Positions 18,881 to 30,365 of a stretch of DNA of 64,000 nt are shown in pieces (within the stretch, counting starts at the first letter, position 1; the number at the start of each line of letters is the position of its first letter). The notes under the pieces are model-generated. The model had not been told where the DNA came from and did not search any database. It saw only the letters and a program-made list of their open reading frames with translations. A program made the translations under genes and the position numbers. This DNA is from Myxococcales bacterium (GTDB lineage Bacteria > Myxococcota_A > Polyangia > Haliangiales > Haliangiaceae). The stretch is from NCBI GenBank assembly GCA_016720595.1, contig JADKKI010000002.1, forward strand, positions 496,001 through 560,000, written 5' to 3'.

Positions 18881-20407
18881 TCACTGACCGGGGGAGAACA
18901 CGAACGGGTAGTTGACCAGCGCGCCGCCCTTCTGCGGAAAGTGCAGGAGGCCGAGGGCGTTCTTCACGCACTGGATCACCGCAGCGTTGGTCATCGAGCC
19001 GCCGGTCTTGTTCTGCCCGCGCACCCTGCCGTTGGGCAGGATCTCGAAGTGGATCGCGATGTCACCCGCGAGCGTGGGCTCGCGGTTGAGCTCCTTCTGG
19101 TAGCAGGTGCGGTACATGTTCGCGCGCGCACGGATGACCTGGTCGATCTCGAACTGCGTCAGCGTCGGAGGATTGTTGGGCGGCGGCACCGGCGGCGGCA
19201 TCACCTGCGGACCGGGGCCATTCCCGCACCCGGCGCCCATGCACATCGCCGTGCGCAGCGGGCCGGTCTGGATCGGCCCGCTCCCCACCTGCTTGCCGAC
19301 CGGCCCCTTCCCGTCCCCGCCACCCTTCGTGACCCCGAGCCCGCCGCCCGGTTCGCCGTCCGGGGCGCCAGTCCGGTTGCCACCCCCGATCTCGCCGATG
19401 CGTCCGATCGCCGTACGGATGTCCCGGTCGAGGACCTTCTGGATCAGCTCTCCCTGCTTCAGCACACCCACGGGCTCGGTAGGGTTCGGGTTCAGACCTG
19501 GGGTCGGGTTCGGCGTACCGGTCTCTTGCTTCGGAGTCACCGCCGCCGCGATCTGCTTGTTGGGCAGGGTCGGCGTCGGGACCTTCTTGCCCTTGGGCCG
19601 CGTCCACGCGCGGCGCGGCGGCATCGCATCGACGGACGCCGGCGTGGCGGCGCCCACGGTCGGCTTCGCCACCGGCTCCGGCTTGGGCGGCTTGAGCTCG
19701 TCGAGCTTCACGAGATAGCCACCCGACACGGCGTCCTGCTTCGGCCACTCGAACGGCGAGGCACGCTCGTAGAGCTGGAACGTCGCGAACAGCAGCGCCG
19801 CATGCAGCATCACGGAGAACGCGAGTGAGGCGCGTGACTCGTTGTCCTGCTTGAGCACCCAGCGCACCACGGCCGCGAGGCCGATCGCCAGCGAGGACAG
19901 GCTGCTCGCGCGGAACACGGCCTCGCCGATCGGGACGCCTTTCCACGCCCACAGCCCCGTCAGCGCTGCCACGCTCAGACCGAAGCCACCGACGGCGGCG
20001 AGGATCATCGGATGGCCGAGATTCCAGTCGGCCTCCTCGAGAGGGACGAACTGGAAGAACAGCTTGTGATCCCCCGTGGCGTCGAGGCTGATCACGCCCC
20101 AGTCATTGCCGCCGATCGGCGTCGCGCGAAACCCGGTGGGCTCCTCTCCCGCGCGCACGAAGGCCGCGACATCCTGCTCGACGCCGCCGAGGCAGATCGT
20201 GCCGTGCATCTGATCGGACAACGTCAGGAGGTAGCCACGACGACCCGGCGTGACGATCGCGTACTCGCTCGCCCCGCTGATCGCCGGTGTCGTGAACGTT
20301 GCCTCGCCCGACGAGCCGATCGTGACCTTCGCTGGCTTCTCGTGAACGAGGTCGCTCATCACCTCGTCGTGCCAGATCAGCGACGTGCGCAGCCCGGTGG
20401 TCCCCAT
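18881..20407 (-). CDS. AgmX/PglI-type protein with C-terminal TonB-like domain
   Basis: 508 residues. The N-terminus (TSLIWHDEVMSDLVHEKPAK, then a beta-rich segment with GYLLTLSDQMHGTICLGG) matches the start typical of myxobacterial AgmX/PglI proteins. Two to three transmembrane segments lie at about 140-215. A Pro/Gly/Lys-rich linker follows (about 245-400), probably spanning the periplasm. The last about 100 residues form the AgmX/PglI C-terminal domain: ARANMYRTCYQKELNREPTL, GDIAIHFEILPNGRVRG, and a final VNYPFVFSPG strand. AgmX was named from adventurous gliding motility mutants; the domain organisation is TonB-like, suggesting force or signal transfer from inner to outer membrane. A nearby TonB-dependent receptor (22229-24151) could be a partner, which is inference. 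Confidence 0.85.
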   Translation of the reverse strand: MGTTGLRTSLIWHDEVMSDLVHEKPAKVTIGSSGEATFTTPAISGASEYAIVTPGRRGYLLTLSDQMHGTICLGGVEQDVAAFVRAGEEPTGFRATPIGGNDWGVISLDATGDHKLFFQFVPLEEADWNLGHPMILAAVGGFGLSVAALTGLWAWKGVPIGEAVFRASSLSSLAIGLAAVVRWVLKQDNESRASLAFSVMLHAALLFATFQLYERASPFEWPKQDAVSGGYLVKLDELKPPKPEPVAKPTVGAATPASVDAMPPRRAWTRPKGKKVPTPTLPNKQIAAAVTPKQETGTPNPTPGLNPNPTEPVGVLKQGELIQKVLDRDIRTAIGRIGEIGGGNRTGAPDGEPGGGLGVTKGGGDGKGPVGKQVGSGPIQTGPLRTAMCMGAGCGNGPGPQVMPPPVPPPNNPPTLTQFEIDQVIRARANMYRTCYQKELNREPTLAGDIAIHFEILPNGRVRGQNKTGGSMTNAAVIQCVKNALGLLHFPQKGGALVNYPFVFSPGQ

Positions 20408-20498: not shown

Positions 20499-21341
20499 TC
20501 AGATCGACGGCTCGACCTGGAACACCATCACCTGCCCGCCACGGCGCATCGCCACGAACGCGCGTTCGCCATCGGTCGCGACGCCGCGCGGCTGCCAGGG
20601 GCCGCTCGCGATCACCTGGTGTCGCCCGTCGAGCCACAGCCTGCGCAGGGACCCGCGCTGCGTCTGCTCGTCGAACGTGGTGACGAGCACGGAGTCGAGG
20701 CCGTAGCTGCACAAGGAATCGGGGCAGCCGAGATCTCCGGCGAGCTGCAACCGGAGCACGGCGCGACCGGAGGCCATCTCGACCCGGAACACGGCGCGCT
20801 GCCGCGCATCGGCGACCACCAGCGTGGGCCCCAGCTTGACGATCCCGACGGGCTTGCCGAACCCATCGAGGATCGTGGACGGCTCTCCCGTGACGAGATC
20901 GATCGTGACGATCGACCCATCGCACGGGCCATACGCCGAGCTGCGGAACTGCGTCGTGTACAACGCGTGCTCGCGGGCATCGTACGTCACGCCGAGCCGC
21001 TGATCCTCGGGCCGCAGGCGGGACAGCTCCTCGACCTGACCATCGGGCTCGATACGAAACAGCCCACCCGCGCTGCCCTGTCCGATTCGGGTCGCGAACA
21101 GAGTGCCGTAGGGTGTGATCGCGAGCCCGCCGATCCGCTCACCGATCACGCCACCGCTGTCGATCGTCGCGATCCGCCGCTGATAGCCGCCCTCGATGCA
21201 GAGGATCGCACCGGAGTACGCGTCCGCGATGTAGAGCGCGTCGACGTGGTGATCGTAGGCGAGCCCGCTCGGATCTGCCTGGACGCGGATCGGTCGGAGC
21301 TCATCGGCGAGCGTGTGCGCAAACGCGTTGTGCAGCTGCAT
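20499..21341 (-). CDS. beta-propeller protein, NHL/SMP-30-like
   Basis: About 280 residues from ATG 21341. The frame stays open upstream to 21521, and a GTG about 15 codons upstream (VEVIAGTSLAPCETC) could be the true start because that stretch also looks coding. The sequence is a series of blades with recurring patterns such as GLAYDHHVDALYIADAYSGA, GLAITPYGTLFATRIG, GVTYDAREHALYTTQF, VGIVKLGPTLVVADA and GVATDGERAFVAMRRG, as in NHL or gluconolactonase-like propellers. No signal peptide is evident with either start. A role as a cytoplasmic sensor or binding scaffold, or a hydrolase, cannot be chosen from sequence. It is transcribed away from the lipoprotein at 21561. Confidence 0.75.
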   Translation of the reverse strand: MQLHNAFAHTLADELRPIRVQADPSGLAYDHHVDALYIADAYSGAILCIEGGYQRRIATIDSGGVIGERIGGLAITPYGTLFATRIGQGSAGGLFRIEPDGQVEELSRLRPEDQRLGVTYDAREHALYTTQFRSSAYGPCDGSIVTIDLVTGEPSTILDGFGKPVGIVKLGPTLVVADARQRAVFRVEMASGRAVLRLQLAGDLGCPDSLCSYGLDSVLVTTFDEQTQRGSLRRLWLDGRHQVIASGPWQPRGVATDGERAFVAMRRGGQVMVFQVEPSI

Positions 21342-21560
21342 GCACGTCTCGCACGGTGCGAGCGACGTGCCGGCGATAACCTCCACGGCGCCGATGACAG
21401 CGCCATGACGGCCGCACGGAAATCGAGGACAGCCCCAGCATCTCGGGGTCTGGACTCCCGCCTCCCGACCAGCTCCCCCCAACAGATCCGCCCAGGTAAC
21501 CCTCTTGTAACGGGGTGTCACGGGGTTGGAGAGGGCACGGCCCTTGCTCGTTCTGGGGGC

Positions 21561-22228: not shown

Positions 22229-24151
22229 TCACTGCCACATGCCCTGGAGCACGAGCGACACGACGCGCCCCGCGGTGTGATAGCCGGCGCGGGTCTCGGG
22301 CTGCTCGTCGAGTGCGTCGTCGACGCGGAACACGGCGAGGTACTCCTTGCCGAGCTGCGCGGTCAGGTTCGCTTCGAACAGCGCATAGCCGGAGACCACC
22401 ATGCCCTTGTCGAGCGCATCCCCGAGGTACTTCACGCGGACGAGTCCAGAGAACCGCTTGTCGAGCGTGCCCTGCGCCCACAGATCGAAACGATGGTGCG
22501 GGAGGCGGTCGATCGGATCGTCGCCGCTCGTGTCGGCGTTCGCCTTGACGTAGTTGTACGAGCCACCGACCTCGACGCGCCGTTCGAGCGTGACCTTGAC
22601 CTGGGTGTCCACGCCCCAGAAGTTCACGCGCCCGAGGTTCGTGAGCTTGCCCATGTCCATCGGATCCGTGGAGACCCGCACCGTCCCCGTCGAGTGCTTG
22701 AAGAACGGCGCGACCTCGATCTTCAAGCGATCGCGCGTCTCGACGGCGCGCAGCTCGGCGTGCGCGATCTTCTCGGGGCCGAGAAGCGGGTTGCCGGTGG
22801 CGGCATCGAACCGTTCGCGCAGGCTCGGGACGCGGCCCTTGTAGCCGGCCGTCGCGGTCAGCTCGAGGTGCGGCCGCGGCTTGTACTTGGCGACCAGCTT
22901 GCCCTCGGGCCACGGATCGGCGCCCACCCCGAACGGCATCGCGAGGCCTGCTGCCGCATCGAGCCGGAGCTGCCGCTTCTCGTACTGCGCGTCGACGGCG
23001 AGCTCCATCATCGTGACGTCGCCGCGGACCGCCTCGCGGGCCTGGTTCACGACCAGCGCCTTCTCGTGATCGATCGAGGCCGAGCTCGCCCAGCGCAGCT
23101 CCTTGGTGAGCGGCTTGGTGGCCAGCACGAACCCGCCGCTCCGGATCGCCGACAGGCTCTCCGACTGGAGCTGGCTCGTGAACTGCGGATCGTTGAAGAA
23201 CCGCGAGCGCCGGAACAGGTAGTGGCCGAAGTACTGCCCCTGGAGCTGCAGCTTGCCGATCTTCTCGTCGGCCTTGACCGAACCACGCACCGAGGTCTCG
23301 CGATCGATCATCAGGATCGAGCTGCGCATCGCATCGCTCGGCGGTGCCACGTAGTGGCGATCGTCGAGAAAGCCGTCGAACGCGATCCGGCGATCGCCCT
23401 TGCGGTACTCGAGCCGCCCGGCGCCCGTGCTCGACCTCCGGGCCTCACCCACCGACGCATCGCCGGGGAGCTGGAGATCCCGTGCCCCCGCCACGCCGGA
23501 TGCGGAGATCCGGATCGCGAGGTGCTTCGCGAGCGGCGCGCGTGCGGTGCCGGTCATCCCGAACGTCGGCAGCGAGTCCGAGGTCAGCCGTGCGACCACG
23601 ATCTGATCTCCGATCGCATCGCGGGTCAGCACCTCGATCACCCCGCCCGGGCCGCCCGGGCCGTCGATCGGCGACTGCGGCGTGGTCGAGACCCGGATCT
23701 GGACGATGTCGGTGATCGGGATCGTCGAGACGTCGAACGTGCCGTAGTAGGGATCGGTCACGAGCACACCATCGATCAGCACGCTCACCGCACCCTTGCG
23801 AGCGCCGCGGATGTCGATGTTGAACCCGCCGCGCCCCGCATCACGCACGCTGACGTCGGGCAACAGGGCCAGGGCGGTCCCGAGATCCACCGCACCGCGC
23901 GCCGCCAGCTGCTCCCCGGTCAGCCGGACTTCGGTGTCGCGATCGAACGGCTTGTCGGGCCGCTCATCGAAGATCTCGATGACGTCGCCCTCCGCCAGCT
24001 TCTGGAGATCCGCATCGGACAGGCCCTCGGGGGGAGGTGCCTCCACCGTCGTCGTCGGATCTGGAGCCCCCTGGGCTCGGGCCGGGGCGCCCGCTCCCCA
24101 CGCGACGGCGGTCGCGGCAATCGAGAACAGATAGTTGGAGAGGCGGCGCAT
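22229..24151 (-). CDS. TonB-dependent outer-membrane receptor
   Basis: About 640 residues from ATG 24151, which begins a signal peptide (MRRLSNYLFSIAATAVAWGA). A short TonB-box-like region and linker (GDVIEIFDERP) precede the plug domain at about 65-190: LTGEQLAARGAVDLGTALAL, LPDVSVRDAGRGGFNIDIRG, SVLIDGVLVTDPY, and GPGGPGGVIEVLTRD, all hallmarks of the plug. The remaining about 450 residues are barrel strands (for example ELTATAGYKGRVPSLRERFD, FNPLLGPEKIAH-like turn), ending VVSLVLQGMWQ. Such receptors import iron chelates, cobalamin or glycans. No ligand can be named, and no dedicated ABC transporter or TonB/ExbBD genes are next to it. Confidence 0.93.
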   Translation of the reverse strand: MRRLSNYLFSIAATAVAWGAGAPARAQGAPDPTTTVEAPPPEGLSDADLQKLAEGDVIEIFDERPDKPFDRDTEVRLTGEQLAARGAVDLGTALALLPDVSVRDAGRGGFNIDIRGARKGAVSVLIDGVLVTDPYYGTFDVSTIPITDIVQIRVSTTPQSPIDGPGGPGGVIEVLTRDAIGDQIVVARLTSDSLPTFGMTGTARAPLAKHLAIRISASGVAGARDLQLPGDASVGEARRSSTGAGRLEYRKGDRRIAFDGFLDDRHYVAPPSDAMRSSILMIDRETSVRGSVKADEKIGKLQLQGQYFGHYLFRRSRFFNDPQFTSQLQSESLSAIRSGGFVLATKPLTKELRWASSASIDHEKALVVNQAREAVRGDVTMMELAVDAQYEKRQLRLDAAAGLAMPFGVGADPWPEGKLVAKYKPRPHLELTATAGYKGRVPSLRERFDAATGNPLLGPEKIAHAELRAVETRDRLKIEVAPFFKHSTGTVRVSTDPMDMGKLTNLGRVNFWGVDTQVKVTLERRVEVGGSYNYVKANADTSGDDPIDRLPHHRFDLWAQGTLDKRFSGLVRVKYLGDALDKGMVVSGYALFEANLTAQLGKEYLAVFRVDDALDEQPETRAGYHTAGRVVSLVLQGMWQ

Positions 24152-24294: not shown

Positions 24295-24768
24295 ATGCTC
24301 GAGTCGATGACGAACGGTGACGGTGATAGCAGCGGTCGGATCCTGTCGAACCAGGACGACATCCGTGGCAACCAGGCCCGGATCATCTCGAACCAGGAGA
24401 AGATCCTGGCCAACCAGGGCAAGATCGCTGGCAATCAGGGTCAGCTGACCAAGATCCTCGCGAACCAGGAAGCGATCCTGGCCAACCAGGGCAAGATCGC
24501 CGGCAACCAGAAGCAGCTCGCGCAGATCCTCGCGAACCAGAAGGCGATCGTCGCGAACCAGAAGAAGCTCGACGCGATCGTCGCGAACGGGAAGAAGCTG
24601 GATGCGATCCTCGCCAACCAGGCCAAGATCGCCGGCAACCAGAAGAAGCTCGATCAGGTGCTCGCGAACCAGAAGACGATCGCCGGCAACCAGAAGCAGC
24701 TCGCGCAGATCCTCACGAACCAGAAGACGATCGTCGCGAACCAGAAGAAGATCCTCGCCAAGCGCTAG
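24295..24768 (+). CDS. repetitive NQ-heptad coiled-coil protein
   Basis: 157 residues from ATG 24295 (ATG 24271 is also in frame). After about 15 polar residues nearly the whole protein is built from heptads of the form I-x-x-N-Q-x-x (ILSNQDD, IRGNQAR, ILANQGK, IAGNQKQ, IVANQKK), about 15 of them. Three-residue insertions (LTK, LAQ, LDA, LDQ) recur between heptads, giving an alternating 7/10 pattern. Putting Ile/Leu at position a places Asn at d, the arrangement known from trimeric autotransporter stalks (IxxNTxx, N-at-d layers binding anions). No signal peptide or membrane segment is seen. Its stop abuts the start of the next gene (TAG-ATG), implying a shared operon. Function unknown. Confidence 0.85.
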   Translation: MLESMTNGDGDSSGRILSNQDDIRGNQARIISNQEKILANQGKIAGNQGQLTKILANQEAILANQGKIAGNQKQLAQILANQKAIVANQKKLDAIVANGKKLDAILANQAKIAGNQKKLDQVLANQKTIAGNQKQLAQILTNQKTIVANQKKILAKR

Positions 24769-25200
24769 ATGGACCTCCTCGAGCGAGCTCGCGCGCTCGC
24801 GGCGTGCCCGCTGTTCGCCGATCTCGCCCCCGCGGTGGTGATCCGGCTCGCCGAGCGCGCACGCCCCTCGACTCTCGAGCCGGGTGAGCGCAAGACCACC
24901 GACGACACCGTCTGGATCGTCGTCGAGGGTTCGCTCGTCATCGCCTCGCGCGCGGCGATGTCTGCGGTGGCCTCGATCAGCACCACCCGGAAGCACGGGG
25001 GGACCGCGACGCCGGGGCACGTGCTCGGTTTGGTCCGCGTCATCGCCCCGCAGACCCCCGCGCTCGATGCGGTCGCCGAGCGGGCGAGCGTGGTGATCGG
25101 CCTCTCCGTCGATGACATGCGTGACGTACTCGAAGAGGACCCGATCGCCCTCGCCGCACTCTCGGGCGCCCTCGCCCGCCGCCTGCTGGAAGGCGCGTAG
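24769..25200 (+). CDS. small cyclic-nucleotide-binding-like protein (degenerate)
   Basis: 143 residues: an N-terminal helix (LLERARALAACPLFADLAPA) typical of CRP-type cNMP-binding folds, beta-roll strands with VWIVVEGSLVIA, and C-terminal helices (VDDMRDVLEEDPIALAALSG). The phosphate-binding cassette expected around GE(L/I)xxL...RxAxV is replaced by VLGLVRVIAPQTPALDAVAE and lacks the key Glu and Arg, so nucleotide binding is doubtful. It begins immediately after the coiled-coil gene and shares one base with the next start (TAGTG), so all three genes are very likely cotranslated. It could be a regulatory subunit of the transporter-like protein downstream. Confidence 0.8.
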   Translation: MDLLERARALAACPLFADLAPAVVIRLAERARPSTLEPGERKTTDDTVWIVVEGSLVIASRAAMSAVASISTTRKHGGTATPGHVLGLVRVIAPQTPALDAVAERASVVIGLSVDDMRDVLEEDPIALAALSGALARRLLEGA

Positions 25201-28079
25201 TGAACCGCCGCGCCTTCATCCTCGGCGCCGCGATGGTGCTGCTCTGCAACCTGGTCGCGGTCACCCTCCGCTCGTTCGCGGAGGCCGCGTTCCTCGAGGC
25301 CTATGGTGCGGGCAAGCTCCCGTGGCTGCTGATCGCCAACGCGAGCGGCTTCGCTGTCGCGACGCTCGGCTACGACCTGATCACGCGGCGTGCGAGCTCG
25401 CGGATCGTCGATCTCGGCCTCCTGGTCGCCTTGCTCCTGACCGCGGCGGCGAGCCCGGCGCTCCTCCACGCCGGCGTGCCACCGGCGGTCCTCGTGGTGA
25501 CCCTCGCCGCGTTCTCCCAGGTCGCCGGCCTCGCGCTGTGGAACCGCGTGGCGGCCTCGGTCGCCGGTCGCGATGCGCGCCGCATGCTGCCCCGCGCGGG
25601 CGCAGCGGTCACGCTCGGTGGTGCGATCGCCGGTCTCGGTGCGGGCGCGCTCGTCTATCGCGCCGGGCTCACGGTGTTGCCGTACATCGGCGCGGGGGTC
25701 ACGGCGGTCGTCCTCGGCCTGTGCATCACACAGGAGAAGGCGCTCGCCAAGGGCGGCGCACCTGGCGCCACCGCCCCGGCCGGCACCCCGGAGGTCTTGA
25801 ACCCGCTGCAGCGGCGACTCCTCGGATCGCTGATCGCGGTCGCGCTCCTCGAGGGCGTGGTGGCGACCGTGATCGATCTGCAGTTCATCTCGCAGCTGAA
25901 GAGCCGCTATCACGGCGACACCCTGGCCGCGGCGGTCGCGCTGTTCTACGGCGGTACCAACGGCGTCTTGTTCCTGCTCCAGGTCGCAGCGGTGCCGCGC
26001 ATCCTCGTCACCCGCAGCCTGCCGACCACGGCGGCGATCCACCCGATCCTCGCGATCGCCTGGTACGCGGTGTTCGCAACGGCGCCGTCGTTCATCCTGA
26101 TCGCCGGGACCCGCACCTCCGATCAGGTGCTCCGCCTGGCGACCTCGCGCACGTCCCAGGAGATCGAGCTCTCGGCCTTCCCGCCCGGACCGCGCGCCCG
26201 GTGGAAGGTCCTCCTGCGCGGCGCGATGTGGCCGCTCGGCGCCGCGGCCGCCGCCCTCGTCCTCCTGGCGATCGGCCCCGCCGCCGTTGCACATCCCACG
26301 AGGCTCGCTGCCGCAGCGATCGGCGTCGCGGTGATCTGGTGGATCGCTGGGCAGATCGCGGCGCGCCGATTCCAGACCGCCCTCGCCGCGCCGCTCGGGA
26401 TTCGCGCTCACCAGGCGGAGGATCTGCGCAAGATCGATCTCGAGACCCTCGAGCGGTGGAGCGAGATCGCCGGCGGCGACGATCCTCGCACCGCCGCACT
26501 CGCGCGCGCCGCGATCACGCGCGCCCGGGTCGCGGCCAGCGACCTCGCCGACCACCTCCGCCACGACGAGCCCGCCGTGCGCACCGCCCTGTTCGATCAG
26601 CTCGCGCGCTCTCCCACGCCGTCCCTGCGTGGCGAGCTCCGCGCCGCGGTGGAGATCGAAGACGATGATCGCGCTCTCGCCGCCGGTCTCAAGGCGCTCG
26701 CGCTCGCCGGTGACGACAGCCTGATCGCGCGCGGCCGATCACGCGGCGCCCTGTCCCGCGAGGTCGACGACGCCGCTCGTTCGGCGGAGATCACCCTGCG
26801 CGGCGGCGACGTGGCCGGCGAGATCGGCCGGCTGTGCGAACGTGACCCTGCGTGGGCCGTGGCGCTGGTCCGCGCGCGCCGCGCCGACCTCACGGACGAC
26901 GCTCTCGCTGCCGCCTTGATCGCCGCAGCTGACATCCCCGCACGCCGTGCAGGCGCGCTCGGCGTGATCGCATGCGCGGGTCCGGTGGCGACACGAGACC
27001 TGCTCGCCGCCGCGCTCGAGGTCGGCGCGCCCGAGGCGATCGCGGCGATCGTGATGCTCGATCTCGAAGGTGCGACGCACCTCGCGCCGTGGATCCCCGA
27101 GCTGTCTCCGCTCGCCCGCGCGGCGATCGCCCGCGCGCTCGCCGGCGCACCCTCGGGCGCCGAGCTCGTCGGTGCGCTCCTCGGCGGCGACGATCCCGAG
27201 GTCGCCCACGCAGTCCTCCGGACCGCCCTCGCGATCGCACGCGGCGGCGGCACGCTCCCTGCGGGGCCGGTCGCCGCAGCGAACCAGGTCTCGCTGAAGG
27301 CCCTGGTGCTCCATCTCGACGCGCGGGACGCCTCGGCCGCGTGGTCGGCGTGCGCGAAGCAGGAGCTCGAGATCGCGATCCGCCGGTGCGTGGCGCGCAT
27401 GCTGTGGGCCGCCGCCGTCGAGGCTGCCGCGGCTGGCCGCGATCCGGCCGCGCTCGCTGCCGCCGCACGCCACCTGATCGGAGGACGGGAGGCAGATCGC
27501 CGGCGCGCCCTCGACGTGGTTCAGGAGGTCCAATCCGGGCGCTCCGAGATCCTCGCCGTGATCGAGCGGTGGCTGCGCCCCGCCGAGCCCACACCGGGCA
27601 CCGCCGCCGTGCTCGTCCCGGTGGATCCATGGCTCGCGAAGCTCTGTCAGGGCGAGCTCGCCGCGCTCGAGCCCACGCTGCTCGCGCTGCGCAAGCCCGC
27701 CCTGTTCGCGACCATCGCCGGCCCTGCCCTCGCCGCCCTCGCCACGCGCGCGACCCGTCGCACCGTCACCGGCGAGCTGTTCGTCGCCGGCAGCGACGGC
27801 GACAGCATGTTCGTCGTCGCCGAGGGCACGCTCGAGGCCGTCCGTCTGGGCGCGCCGCCGCGCAAGATCGATCCCGGCGGCGTGGTCGGGGAGCTCGCCG
27901 TGCTGACCCGCGCCCAGCGCGCGGCGACGGTCACCGCGGTGGGCACTGCGGAGGTGATCGAGATCGATCGCGAGACGTTCACCGCCGTCTCGCAGCGCGC
28001 CCCCGAGCTGGTCGCCGGCCTGTCCGCCACGCTCGCGGGCTGGCTCGCCCCCGAGCGCCCGGATGTGCTCGGGACCTGA
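25200..28079 (+). CDS. nucleotide-transporter-like MFS protein fused to HEAT-like repeats and a cNMP-binding domain
   Basis: 959 residues from a GTG that overlaps the preceding stop. Residues 1-400 hold about 11-12 membrane helices (FILGAAMVLLCNLVAVTLRS, LGLLVALLLTAAASPALLHA, LGGAIAGLGAGALVYRAG...), resembling the Npt1/ADP-ATP translocase-like transporters of bacteria. Residues about 410-830 are Ala/Leu/Asp-rich helical repeats of HEAT type (for example LADHLRHDEPAVRTALFDQL). The last about 120 residues form a CRP-type domain with an intact phosphate-binding cassette, VGELAVLTRAQRAATV, retaining Glu and Arg. Predicted role: a membrane transporter or sensor gated by a cyclic nucleotide. Substrate and direction are unknown. 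The tight operon with a coiled-coil protein suggests a complex. Confidence 0.88.
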   Translation: MNRRAFILGAAMVLLCNLVAVTLRSFAEAAFLEAYGAGKLPWLLIANASGFAVATLGYDLITRRASSRIVDLGLLVALLLTAAASPALLHAGVPPAVLVVTLAAFSQVAGLALWNRVAASVAGRDARRMLPRAGAAVTLGGAIAGLGAGALVYRAGLTVLPYIGAGVTAVVLGLCITQEKALAKGGAPGATAPAGTPEVLNPLQRRLLGSLIAVALLEGVVATVIDLQFISQLKSRYHGDTLAAAVALFYGGTNGVLFLLQVAAVPRILVTRSLPTTAAIHPILAIAWYAVFATAPSFILIAGTRTSDQVLRLATSRTSQEIELSAFPPGPRARWKVLLRGAMWPLGAAAAALVLLAIGPAAVAHPTRLAAAAIGVAVIWWIAGQIAARRFQTALAAPLGIRAHQAEDLRKIDLETLERWSEIAGGDDPRTAALARAAITRARVAASDLADHLRHDEPAVRTALFDQLARSPTPSLRGELRAAVEIEDDDRALAAGLKALALAGDDSLIARGRSRGALSREVDDAARSAEITLRGGDVAGEIGRLCERDPAWAVALVRARRADLTDDALAAALIAAADIPARRAGALGVIACAGPVATRDLLAAALEVGAPEAIAAIVMLDLEGATHLAPWIPELSPLARAAIARALAGAPSGAELVGALLGGDDPEVAHAVLRTALAIARGGGTLPAGPVAAANQVSLKALVLHLDARDASAAWSACAKQELEIAIRRCVARMLWAAAVEAAAAGRDPAALAAAARHLIGGREADRRRALDVVQEVQSGRSEILAVIERWLRPAEPTPGTAAVLVPVDPWLAKLCQGELAALEPTLLALRKPALFATIAGPALAALATRATRRTVTGELFVAGSDGDSMFVVAEGTLEAVRLGAPPRKIDPGGVVGELAVLTRAQRAATVTAVGTAEVIEIDRETFTAVSQRAPELVAGLSATLAGWLAPERPDVLGT

Positions 28080-28085
28080 CCCAGA

Positions 28086-30365
28086 TCAGAACTGGAAGTA
28101 GATGAACGGCACCATCTTGGCGTGCCCGAGCTCGCGCAGGACCAGGGCGACCGCCGCGAGCACCAGGCCCTGCGCCGGCGCGGGTAGCTCCACGAACCGG
28201 TCACGCAGCCAGCGATAGCTGCCCTCCGCGAAGAAGTGGATCGCGAACCCCGCGACCATCGTCACGGTCACGAGCGGCACCACGTTCGCGTGATCCAGCT
28301 CGAACGCCGCGAGCTGACGCAGGATCGCGAGCGCGTTATCGAACGAGCTCGCACGGAAGAAGATCCACGCGAGGCAGACGTACTGGAACACGAACACCAC
28401 GGCGACCGCGCGACGGGTGACCACCAGGTAGCGGCGCCACAGGTTGTCCGGGCCACGCTCCACGATGTCTGCGACCAGCCCGAGGAGCCAGGTCAGCGCG
28501 ATGAGCGGGATCCACAGCTCCTGATCTCCGGTGTACAGCGATGAGAAGAAGCCGAGCCCGCTCACGCACATCGCGATCCGCAGGGCCTCGGGCACCCACA
28601 GGCTGGCGTCGCGTCCCCACACCGCAAGGAACGGCACGACCGGCATCACGGGTCTCACCAGCTCGGGCTCGGCCGGGTACTCCTGACCGAGCCACGCCGT
28701 GACCACCGCCCACAGCGGGGTGACCACGAGCCACACCACCACCAGCTGTGACCACACGCCTGCGTCGCCGAACCCGAGATACACGCCGGTCAGCCCGAGC
28801 CCCGCGAGCAGCGCGCACCCCGCCAGCATCGAGAGCGCCTCGCGAAGATTCCCGCCCGCCGTCCGTCGCTGGAAGAACCGCGTCACCGCGAGGCCGAAGC
28901 CGTGCAGTGCGCCCCACACGATGAACGCGAAGCTCGCGCCGTGCCACAAGCCGCCGAGGATCATGGTCGCGATCAGATTCACGTACGTGCGCGCTGGCCC
29001 GAGCCGGCTGCCACCGAGCGAGATGTAGAGATAGTCGCGGAGCCAGGTCGAGAGCGAGATGTGCCAGCGGCGCCAGAACTCCTGGAGGTTCGCGGAGCGA
29101 TACGGCGTGCGGAAGTTCTCCGGGAGCGTGAATCCGAGGATCTGTGCCGAGCCGATCGCGATATCGGAGTACGCCGAGAAGTCGCAGAAGATCTGGAGCG
29201 CGTACGCCCACACCCCGACGGCGACCTCGAGCGCGGAGAACCGCTCCGGGGCCTCGAACACGCGATCGACGATCGCCAGCGCGAGCGTATCGGCGATCGC
29301 GATCTTCTTGAACAGGCCGGTGACGATCCGGAACAGACCGCGCGTCGCCGCCTCGAGCTCGAGCGGCGGCAACGTCTCGAGCTGCGGCAGGAGATCCTGC
29401 GCCCGAACGATCGGTCCGGCGACCAGCTGCGGGAAGAACAGGACGAACGTCGCGAACTGCACCACCGACTGCGTCGCCTTGAGCTGCCGCCGATAGACAT
29501 CGATCGTGTACGACAGCGACTGGAACGTGTGGAACGAGATGCCCGCCGGCAAGATCAGGTGGAGCGGCTTGATCTGTGTGTCCGCGAGCGGGTTGACGAT
29601 GTCCTGCGTGAAGAAGTCGGTGTACTTGAAGAACACCAGGATCCCGAGGTTCGAGCACAGGCTGACGATCACCAGCGCCTTGCGCTTCCACGGATCCTCG
29701 GTGCGCTCGATCCAGATCCCCAGGTAGTAATCGAGGACGATCGTCGCGAGCAGCACGCCCAGGAGGTAGCGATAGGGCCCGGGCATCGCCGCCGCCCACG
29801 CGTGATAGAACAGCGACGACGCGACGAACAGGATCACCACGCGCCCGAGGGGCCGGGTGTCGTCTCGCCCCGATGCGCCGATGCCGACGCCGAGGATCGC
29901 GAGCACCACGAGGTGCGCGTGACGCACGATCTCGGCGGTCACCGCATCCAGCTGGCCGTGGTCCCAAGCGATCGCGACGGTGATCGCGACGACCGCCAGG
30001 ACCGCGACGAGGCCCCGCGCGATCAGCTGCTGCCCCCGCGCCGAGCCGATCCACGGCCCGCCGCGACGCCCGAGCATGATCGCGCCAGCGAGCAGCACCG
30101 AGCCCACGCCCCAGCGCAGGAACAGCTCAGGCGGCCAGTCCTGGTACTGCGGATGATCGCCGGCCGCGAGCCTGCACAGCGCTCCGCCGATCGGATCCCA
30201 CAGGGCGTCGGGATCCTTCGCCACCAGCATCACCACCACGTCCCCGAGCAGCACCATGATCGCCATGCGCGCCCACGCCACCCGCGGTCCGCCCCAGCGC
30301 GCGAGCGCGTAGAGGAAGAACACCGCGATCAGGAACAGCGGGTAGTCCGGGCTCGAGAACAGCAT
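28086..30365 (-). CDS. MBOAT-family O-acyltransferase, AlgI-like
   Basis: 759 residues, largely transmembrane, starting MLFSSPDYPLFLIAVFFLYA as AlgI-type proteins do. The central MBOAT region contains LPAGISFHTFQSLSYTIDVY, the FFPQLVAGPIVRA motif, LQEFWRRWHISLSTWLRDYL, and ILGGLWHGASFAFIVWGALH with the conserved catalytic His pair. About 190 residues of extra helices precede the core and more follow, making it longer than AlgI (about 500). Role: moves an acyl (usually acetyl) group across the inner membrane for O-acylation of an exported polysaccharide or other glycan. It follows the SGNH gene at 30369 by 3 bases, and those SGNH proteins are the probable final transferases. Confidence 0.93.
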   Translation of the reverse strand: MLFSSPDYPLFLIAVFFLYALARWGGPRVAWARMAIMVLLGDVVVMLVAKDPDALWDPIGGALCRLAAGDHPQYQDWPPELFLRWGVGSVLLAGAIMLGRRGGPWIGSARGQQLIARGLVAVLAVVAITVAIAWDHGQLDAVTAEIVRHAHLVVLAILGVGIGASGRDDTRPLGRVVILFVASSLFYHAWAAAMPGPYRYLLGVLLATIVLDYYLGIWIERTEDPWKRKALVIVSLCSNLGILVFFKYTDFFTQDIVNPLADTQIKPLHLILPAGISFHTFQSLSYTIDVYRRQLKATQSVVQFATFVLFFPQLVAGPIVRAQDLLPQLETLPPLELEAATRGLFRIVTGLFKKIAIADTLALAIVDRVFEAPERFSALEVAVGVWAYALQIFCDFSAYSDIAIGSAQILGFTLPENFRTPYRSANLQEFWRRWHISLSTWLRDYLYISLGGSRLGPARTYVNLIATMILGGLWHGASFAFIVWGALHGFGLAVTRFFQRRTAGGNLREALSMLAGCALLAGLGLTGVYLGFGDAGVWSQLVVVWLVVTPLWAVVTAWLGQEYPAEPELVRPVMPVVPFLAVWGRDASLWVPEALRIAMCVSGLGFFSSLYTGDQELWIPLIALTWLLGLVADIVERGPDNLWRRYLVVTRRAVAVVFVFQYVCLAWIFFRASSFDNALAILRQLAAFELDHANVVPLVTVTMVAGFAIHFFAEGSYRWLRDRFVELPAPAQGLVLAAVALVLRELGHAKMVPFIYFQF

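Follow-up and report, generated by a model that had tools for sequence, protein, structure and literature searches.

The locus

The 64,000-nucleotide stretch of Myxococcales DNA analysed here (the window) contains a gene whose product has a short non-repetitive N-terminal start and consists of repeat from there on (Table 1). We refer to this protein as the NQ rod. A divergent TonB-dependent receptor gene lies upstream, and two genes on the rod strand follow directly: a small CNBD-like gene begins on the base after the rod stop codon, and the GTG start of a transporter gene overlaps the stop of the CNBD-like gene by one base. The rod ATG is backed by relatives that have Met at the same place (L001 and L003-L005 begin ML[ES].., L002 begins MES..; L and G numbers are our handles for loci and genomes), and upstream of it the open frame extends back to 24037.

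Table 1. Features of the window and of related loci; positions refer to the window unless a locus is named
Feature	Sequence	Position	Strand	Description
Protein gene	window	18881-20407	-	no Pfam match at E 0.01
Protein gene	window	20499-21521	-	no Pfam match at E 0.01
TonB-dependent receptor, divergent, upstream of rod	window	22229..24151	-	Pfam Plug E 4.6e-16; start placed at Met before MRRLSNYLF
NQ rod gene	window	24295..24768	+	ORF, 157 aa; ATG 24295, TAG 24766-24768
First-to-last NQ pair stretch	window	24349..24750	+	16 NQ pairs and one NG, 7-/10-residue steps
Small CNBD-like protein, 143 aa	window	24769..25200	+	weak Pfam match, E 0.0023, 18.3 bits, cut-off 27.5
Transporter, 959 aa	window	25200..28079	+	12 long membrane-type helices, NTT/MFS fold, helical repeat region, C-terminal CNBD
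MBOAT O-acyltransferase	window	28086-30365	-	Pfam E 4.9e-32; converges on transporter
Small CNBD protein	L054	4146-4586		Pfam E 1.5e-19
Small CNBD protein	L101	4159-4572		carries ligand-cassette pattern
In-frame TGA, type-B binding protein	L016	2847
In-frame TGA, type-B binding protein	L018	1425
In-frame TGA, type-B binding proteins	L137, L138, L139	257-310 bases after rod stop
Redox-flavoured genes near rod (iodothyronine-deiodinase-like)	L020; L018	6653-7918; 4193-5347
Redox-flavoured genes near rod (carboxymuconolactone decarboxylase)	L140; L158	4690-5289; 3615-4151
Redox-flavoured gene near rod (UnbV/ASPIC)	L021	5250-7082

The repeat in the window

A preliminary description had read the rod gene as an IxxNQxx repeat with Asn at d and Gln at e, interrupted by LTK, LAQ, LDA and LDQ triplets, and counting bears this out. 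Successive NQ pairs are spaced 7,7,7,7,10,7,7,10,7,20,7,10,7,10,7 residues apart, that is, ten heptads, four decads and a single step of 20, which equals two decads whose middle NQ reads NG; thus 14 of the 15 steps are 7 or 10. The triplets account for the three residues by which a decad exceeds a heptad. Ile stands three residues before Asn and four after it, which sets the heptad register with Ile at a, Asn at d and Gln at e. Decads such as KKLDQVLANQ have a core spacing of 4-3-3, indicating a three-residue insertion. At the DNA level, tandem periods of 21, 30, 42, 51, 72 and 132 were found. When the composition of the rod was shuffled 10,000 times, the NQ count averaged 2.5 and reached at most 8 (16 observed), and no shuffle held more than 3 steps of 7 or 10, compared with 14 in the real protein. 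The repeat is far beyond chance.

Asn, Gln and Lys make up 59 of the 157 residues, and the protein contains no Cys, Pro, His or aromatic residue. It has no hydrophobic segment and thus no visible signal peptide or membrane anchor, in keeping with its earlier characterisation as cytoplasmic-looking.

Conservation and selection

We compiled repeat statistics from 60 relatives (22+13+9+6+10 from the five samples described below), taking one whole open frame per genome with start codons left untrimmed. In this set, 612 of 644 NQ-NQ steps are 7 or 10, with steps of more than 40 residues excluded, one protein (L045) cut by its contig end, and L088-L090 nearly identical in sequence. Of the other 32 steps, three are 8 or 11 and 29 measure 14, 17 or 20, the lengths that loss of a single NQ would produce. 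Ile or Val occupies the position three residues ahead of Asn at 652 of 704 NQ sites. Repeat-based queries were used to find the relatives, so the search itself accounts for part of this conservation of the repeat; only the searches with the transporters were independent of such queries. Most relatives carry 7-20 NQ pairs; 16 Myxococcota proteins are 116-197 aa long, and lengths overall span 67-197 aa. KLDxxLANQ-like decads and a C-terminus like NQxKILAK are found in both Myxococcota and planctomycete rods, which speaks for a shared origin.

Among five close relatives, the Asn of the NQ pair was identical at 147/155 compared sites and the Gln at 149/155, as against 178/209 for neighbouring core sites and 505/753 for other sites. 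Pairwise dN in the rod was 0.10-0.23 and dS 0.24-0.50, with dN below dS in all ten pairs; the gene after the rod gave dN 0.08-0.19 and dS 0.61-0.97 in the same relatives. Judged by these rates, the rod is under purifying selection, less strongly than the next gene by dN/dS ratio. The lower dS of the rod is an observation in its own right, for which homogenisation of repeats and codon bias are candidate causes.

Predicted structure

AlphaFold2, run on a single chain of the window protein with a 16-sequence alignment, predicted one helix spanning residues 11-156 (mean pLDDT 92.3, pTM 0.47), in agreement with the coiled-coil-type helix proposed earlier and with the continuous helix that a halide-binding trimer with Asn at d would require. 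The fitted core period is 3.415 residues per turn for the window rod and 3.40-3.47 across 22 proteins (16 at 3.40-3.435, six at 3.44-3.47). Myxococcota rods tend to alternate 7 and 10, giving 17 residues in 5 turns (3.40), and planctomycete rods follow a 7,7,10 pattern, giving 24 residues in 7 turns (3.43). The preliminary description had taken the three-residue insertions as bends. The insertions themselves stand, as periodic decads; their regularity lowers the mean periodicity and so points to sustained overwinding rather than discrete bends. Stammers described in PMC4786415 are local, and since those of the rod are periodic, smooth overwinding along the rod is the most straightforward expectation. 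The protein is very probably a coiled coil, and somewhat more likely than not a trimer.

Distribution

A scan of genome contigs gave 23 rod loci, 16 of them titled delta-proteobacterial, Myxococcales or Kofleriaceae, six planctomycete and one armatimonadete. Protein searches returned 139 matches at E<=1e-3 and 224 at E<=1e-8, and source names among the matches listed (the best 120 of 139 and of 224) added relatives in Acidobacteriota. In the class Polyangia (the class of G002), 24 of 317 genomes matched the repeat query at E<=1e-5; two (G209 and G211, E 4e-8 and 9e-7) were dropped since their loci, L046 and L047, lacked an NQ-repeat frame, and 22 have the NQ protein. Repeat-query matches occurred in 3 of 392 genomes of a planctomycete phylum sample, G011 among them. 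Repeat-based queries also found the rod in 13/95, 9/45 and 6/150 genomes in the families of G011, G007 and G008, and in 10/201 genomes of an Armatimonadota sample (the phylum of G013). The family is therefore patchy, common in one Myxococcota group and rare across Planctomycetota as a whole.

No Pfam family exceeded its cut-off for the rod, NCBIfam gave no match, and the best match in a PDB search had E 0.051. We rejected the one suggestion from Pfam, an alkyl sulfatase C-terminus (Alkyl_sulf_C, E 0.0053, 17.4 bits against a cut-off of 27; PDB 4pdx, E 0.051), as a low-complexity match. Phage and plasmid sequences searched with the rod by tblastn contained no match, and an origin in either was rejected; among the open-access PMC papers listed in a literature search, none dealt with the NQ repeat. 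Nucleic-acid binding through a Lys-rich surface was also considered; 16 Myxococcota rods carry a net charge of +8 to +17 and six planctomycete and armatimonadete ones a net charge of 0 to -6, and this reading was dropped because the charge is not common to both groups. The rod is almost certainly a real conserved family.

Neighbourhoods in Myxococcota

The transporter-like neighbour noted previously is the 959-residue protein encoded downstream. Its model (mean pLDDT 82.6) has an NTT-type membrane domain, and Foldseek matched it to AtNTT1 (9j3m, E 1.4e-6, TM by target length 0.66). Among Pfam families, cNMP_binding was the only match at E<=0.01 (E 6.3e-12), with no match to the translocase family; the C-terminal CNBD carries the cassette pattern GELAVLTRAQRAAT. 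SLC9C1 was rejected as the fold: 18 such matches rank above AtNTT1, but their TM across the full chain is only 0.12-0.14.

In 21 of 22 Myxococcota genomes the rod lies directly upstream of the CNBD-like gene and/or the NTT-fold transporter gene, and in 20 of the 22 no more than about 40 bases separate the rod from the CNBD-like gene. Downstream genes were read by ORF inspection and tblastn, with the CNBD-like gene in loci such as L035 and L043 recognised by eye from its start. In G063 the contig breaks inside the rod, and the transporter lies at the usual distance on the next piece; G067 has a rod with neither CNBD-like gene nor transporter. At E<=1e-30 the transporter was present in 21 of the 317 Polyangia genomes, namely 20 of the 22 with a rod plus the rod-less G081; G075 lacks it because its contig ends. 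This co-occurrence (Fisher p 2e-28 over 317 genomes) was counted within clades and is inflated by shared descent. In G081 the CNBD and transporter genes lie together with no rod, so that the rod is either an addition to the pair or was lost there. Two outcomes named in the preliminary description as counting against it, a product predicted to be disordered or not a coiled coil and a repeat conserved in no relative with the same operon, did not occur: a helix is predicted and 20 of the 21 Polyangia genomes with the transporter have the rod.

The small CNBD-like protein varies between loci, being degenerate in the window and clear in L054. The ligand-cassette pattern GE[LIVF][AP]..R.A[TS] was absent from the window protein in a pattern search and present in L101, which we read, together with the L054 match, as a loss of ligand binding in the window's group; the GE..R.A search also misses the L054 protein, although its Pfam match is clear.

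Other genes recur nearby. A TonB-dependent receptor gene also adjoins the rod in L001, L002 (cut), L003 and L005 by tblastn. The MBOAT O-acyltransferase gene is kept in L003, L012 and L057, and that at 20499-21521 stays near the rod in L001, L003, L004 and L007.

Neighbourhoods in Planctomycetota and Armatimonadota

Beyond what had been described before, members of the rod family also lie next to another kind of transporter in two further phyla. Genes for a NitT/TauT-like ABC importer (binding protein, permease and ATPase) lie downstream of the rod in 22 of 30 planctomycete rod genomes: 10/13, 7/9 and 5/6 in the families of G011, G007 and G008, and 0/2 in further genomes of the phylum sample. 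In L137 only the binding protein is visible before the contig end, and L084 is readable only to 1.6 kb. Two types of binding protein, 23% identical to each other, can be told apart: type A, a lipoprotein, and type B, with the motif PVT-C/TGA-HLTCP. Of the 95 genomes of the G011 family, 12 encode a type-A protein; 10 of these 12 have the rod, and in 9 the two genes adjoin. In G803 the two lie on different contigs, and in G775 and G779 no rod lies within 900 bases upstream of the type-A gene. In type-B operons the next gene follows the rod at +32 to +330, or at +1257 in L016, where a TauE/SafE-like gene stands between the rod and the importer genes. Some planctomycete rods, such as that of L020, are preceded by a gene on their own strand, so the rod is not necessarily first in its operon there.

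In the Armatimonadota sample, a type-B permease gene follows the rod at +2 to +31 in 3 of 10 rod genomes, and the two longer loci also encode an ATPase and a binding protein that shares 44-46% identity with type B; the gene order is a different one. The remaining 7 of 10 rods in that sample have no importer neighbour.

Five of nine type-B binding-protein genes have an in-frame TGA at the first Cys of PVTCHLTCP, which probably encodes selenocysteine, recalling SaoX/SaoB. A tRNA-Sec model scored 65.7 bits in G007 and 44.4 in G009 (cut-off 47), and also matched 14 of 14 control genomes, 5 over cut-off. The type-A proteins show a Cys-rich C-terminal tail (CLCCTKCCIE or LCCACCCxSx) in seven of nine cases (L020, L021, L081, L082, L083, L088 and L089), a possible metal ligand. 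Near several rods we also observed iodothyronine-deiodinase-like (PF00837), carboxymuconolactone decarboxylase (PF02627) and UnbV/ASPIC genes, which give these loci a redox flavour.

NitT/TauT-like importers often move anions. The Cys and putative selenocysteine features of these binding proteins hint instead at a soft metal or thiol ligand, which leaves a link between an anion-bearing core and anion transport weak. In PMC13188914, the Cys/Sec features of Sao proteins are tied to such a ligand.

Proposed role and alternatives

Since one phylum keeps the rod next to an NTT-type carrier and two further phyla keep it next to ABC importers, the protein is best read as a transporter accessory. We propose a self-associating cytoplasmic coiled-coil part, accessory or regulatory, of the transporter encoded downstream, an explanation that in its entirety we hold to be evenly balanced. 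A functional link with the neighbouring transporter is likely on the strength of the adjacency, and a role as accessory of inner-membrane transporters is at least as credible as its negation, perhaps somewhat more so. The small rod would self-associate, most likely as a parallel trimer in whose core layers of Ile/Val (at a) and of Asn (at d) take turns, and regular decads would overwind it to about 3.4 residues per turn. It might bind or space the cytoplasmic parts of the transporter, in the window perhaps together with the small CNBD-like protein. According to PMC12933892, trimers with Asn at d depend on halide, each Asn layer weakens the trimer, and a second such layer already prevented a GCN4 trimer in solution. 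Given that model trimers lose stability with Asn layers when no anion occupies the core, the rod may be barely stable and may come together only under certain conditions, in other words act as a switch. Anions in the core are a tentative suggestion, somewhat less likely than not, and regulation through conditional folding or assembly is improbable on present evidence.

Several counter-cases speak for a free-standing rod or filament, a cytoplasmic oligomer with a structural task of its own whose adjacency to transporters reflects co-expression only. Rods occur without such neighbours (G067, 8 of 30 planctomycetes, 7 of 10 in the G013 phylum sample), and transporter genes occur without rods (G081, G775, G779). 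We nevertheless consider this rather unlikely given that almost every Myxococcota genome with the transporter has the rod and that a different importer type recurs beside it in two other phyla. A more specific alternative is that the Asn layers bind a file of anions whose loading controls assembly and thereby the transporter. It draws on the [I/V]xxNxxx core at most NQ sites and on the halide dependence just described; on the other hand, position e of the rod holds Gln where Thr would be expected, the ligand hinted at by the planctomycete binding proteins is a soft one rather than a simple anion, and chloride binding was unfavourable in two of the three models simulated, 4dzk and the GCN4 variant (PMC12933892). 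We consider an anion-loaded switch distinctly unlikely.

Two further readings were considered. The rod gene could mainly couple or tune translation of the genes behind it, as its N/Q/K-rich composition and the zero- or one-base junctions in the window would allow; this is very unlikely, because the core pattern is conserved at the amino-acid level, the products, at 67 to 197 aa, are longer than one expects of a leader, and gaps are larger in type-B planctomycete operons. Least credible of all is a minisatellite-like coding repeat drifting without function. Such a repeat would account for the tandem DNA periods, the variable length of Myxococcota rods, the low dS that homogenisation would give and the higher dN/dS, yet dN stays below dS in every pair, NQ sites are more conserved than others, and frame and place are kept across phyla.

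For the accessory that we prefer, recurrent adjacency to different transporters supplies a testable function. The family sets Asn layers at d and overwinding in series along whole proteins and keeps both across phyla, so a single recombinant rod could reveal what degree of overwinding and what number of Asn layers a coiled coil tolerates, and whether anions in the core are put to use in the cell. At its boldest, the proposal would be that natural cytoplasmic trimers, continuously overwound (about 3.40-3.43) and with stacked Asn layers holding an anion file, fold only when loaded and tune unrelated transporters in at least three phyla. We give this combination only a slight chance; if true, such anion-filed overwound trimers would be a new class of transporter-regulating switch.

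Comparison with known systems

The membrane domain of the downstream transporter shares its fold with ATP/ADP translocases (NTT) such as AtNTT1, from which the protein differs in its added repeat region and CNBD and in lacking a Pfam translocase match. The planctomycete partner resembles SaoX/SaoP/SaoA and NitT/TauT/SsuA importers in subunit make-up and profile similarity, with all scores below the curated cut-offs (for SaoX NF040735, 41.9-72.6 bits against a cut-off of 300).

Stalks of trimeric autotransporter adhesins carry IxxNTxx repeats. The rod has Gln where these have Thr at e and shows neither a signal peptide nor an outer-membrane anchor in its 157 residues, and no adhesin family was among its Pfam matches. 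With Asn-d trimers more broadly (GCN4 variants, the retroviral TM fragment 1mof and autotransporter stalks), it shares a branched residue at a, three before Asn at d, and [I/V]xxNxxx is the halide-binding heptad described in PMC12933892; it departs from them in Gln for Thr at e, in its serial Asn layers and in its periodic insertions. The OMP100 stalk likewise has three-residue insertions near Asn-d layers, according to PMC4786415. In the same source, most non-heptad coiled coils lie above 3.5 residues per turn, 3.33 is the assumed lower coiled-coil limit, and stammers are local strain absorbed by a short 3-10 segment. Stammer-containing coiled coils and the rod share the decad, 10 residues in 3 turns; theirs are local, whereas those of the rod recur along the whole protein, at a mean of 3.40-3.47 residues per turn.
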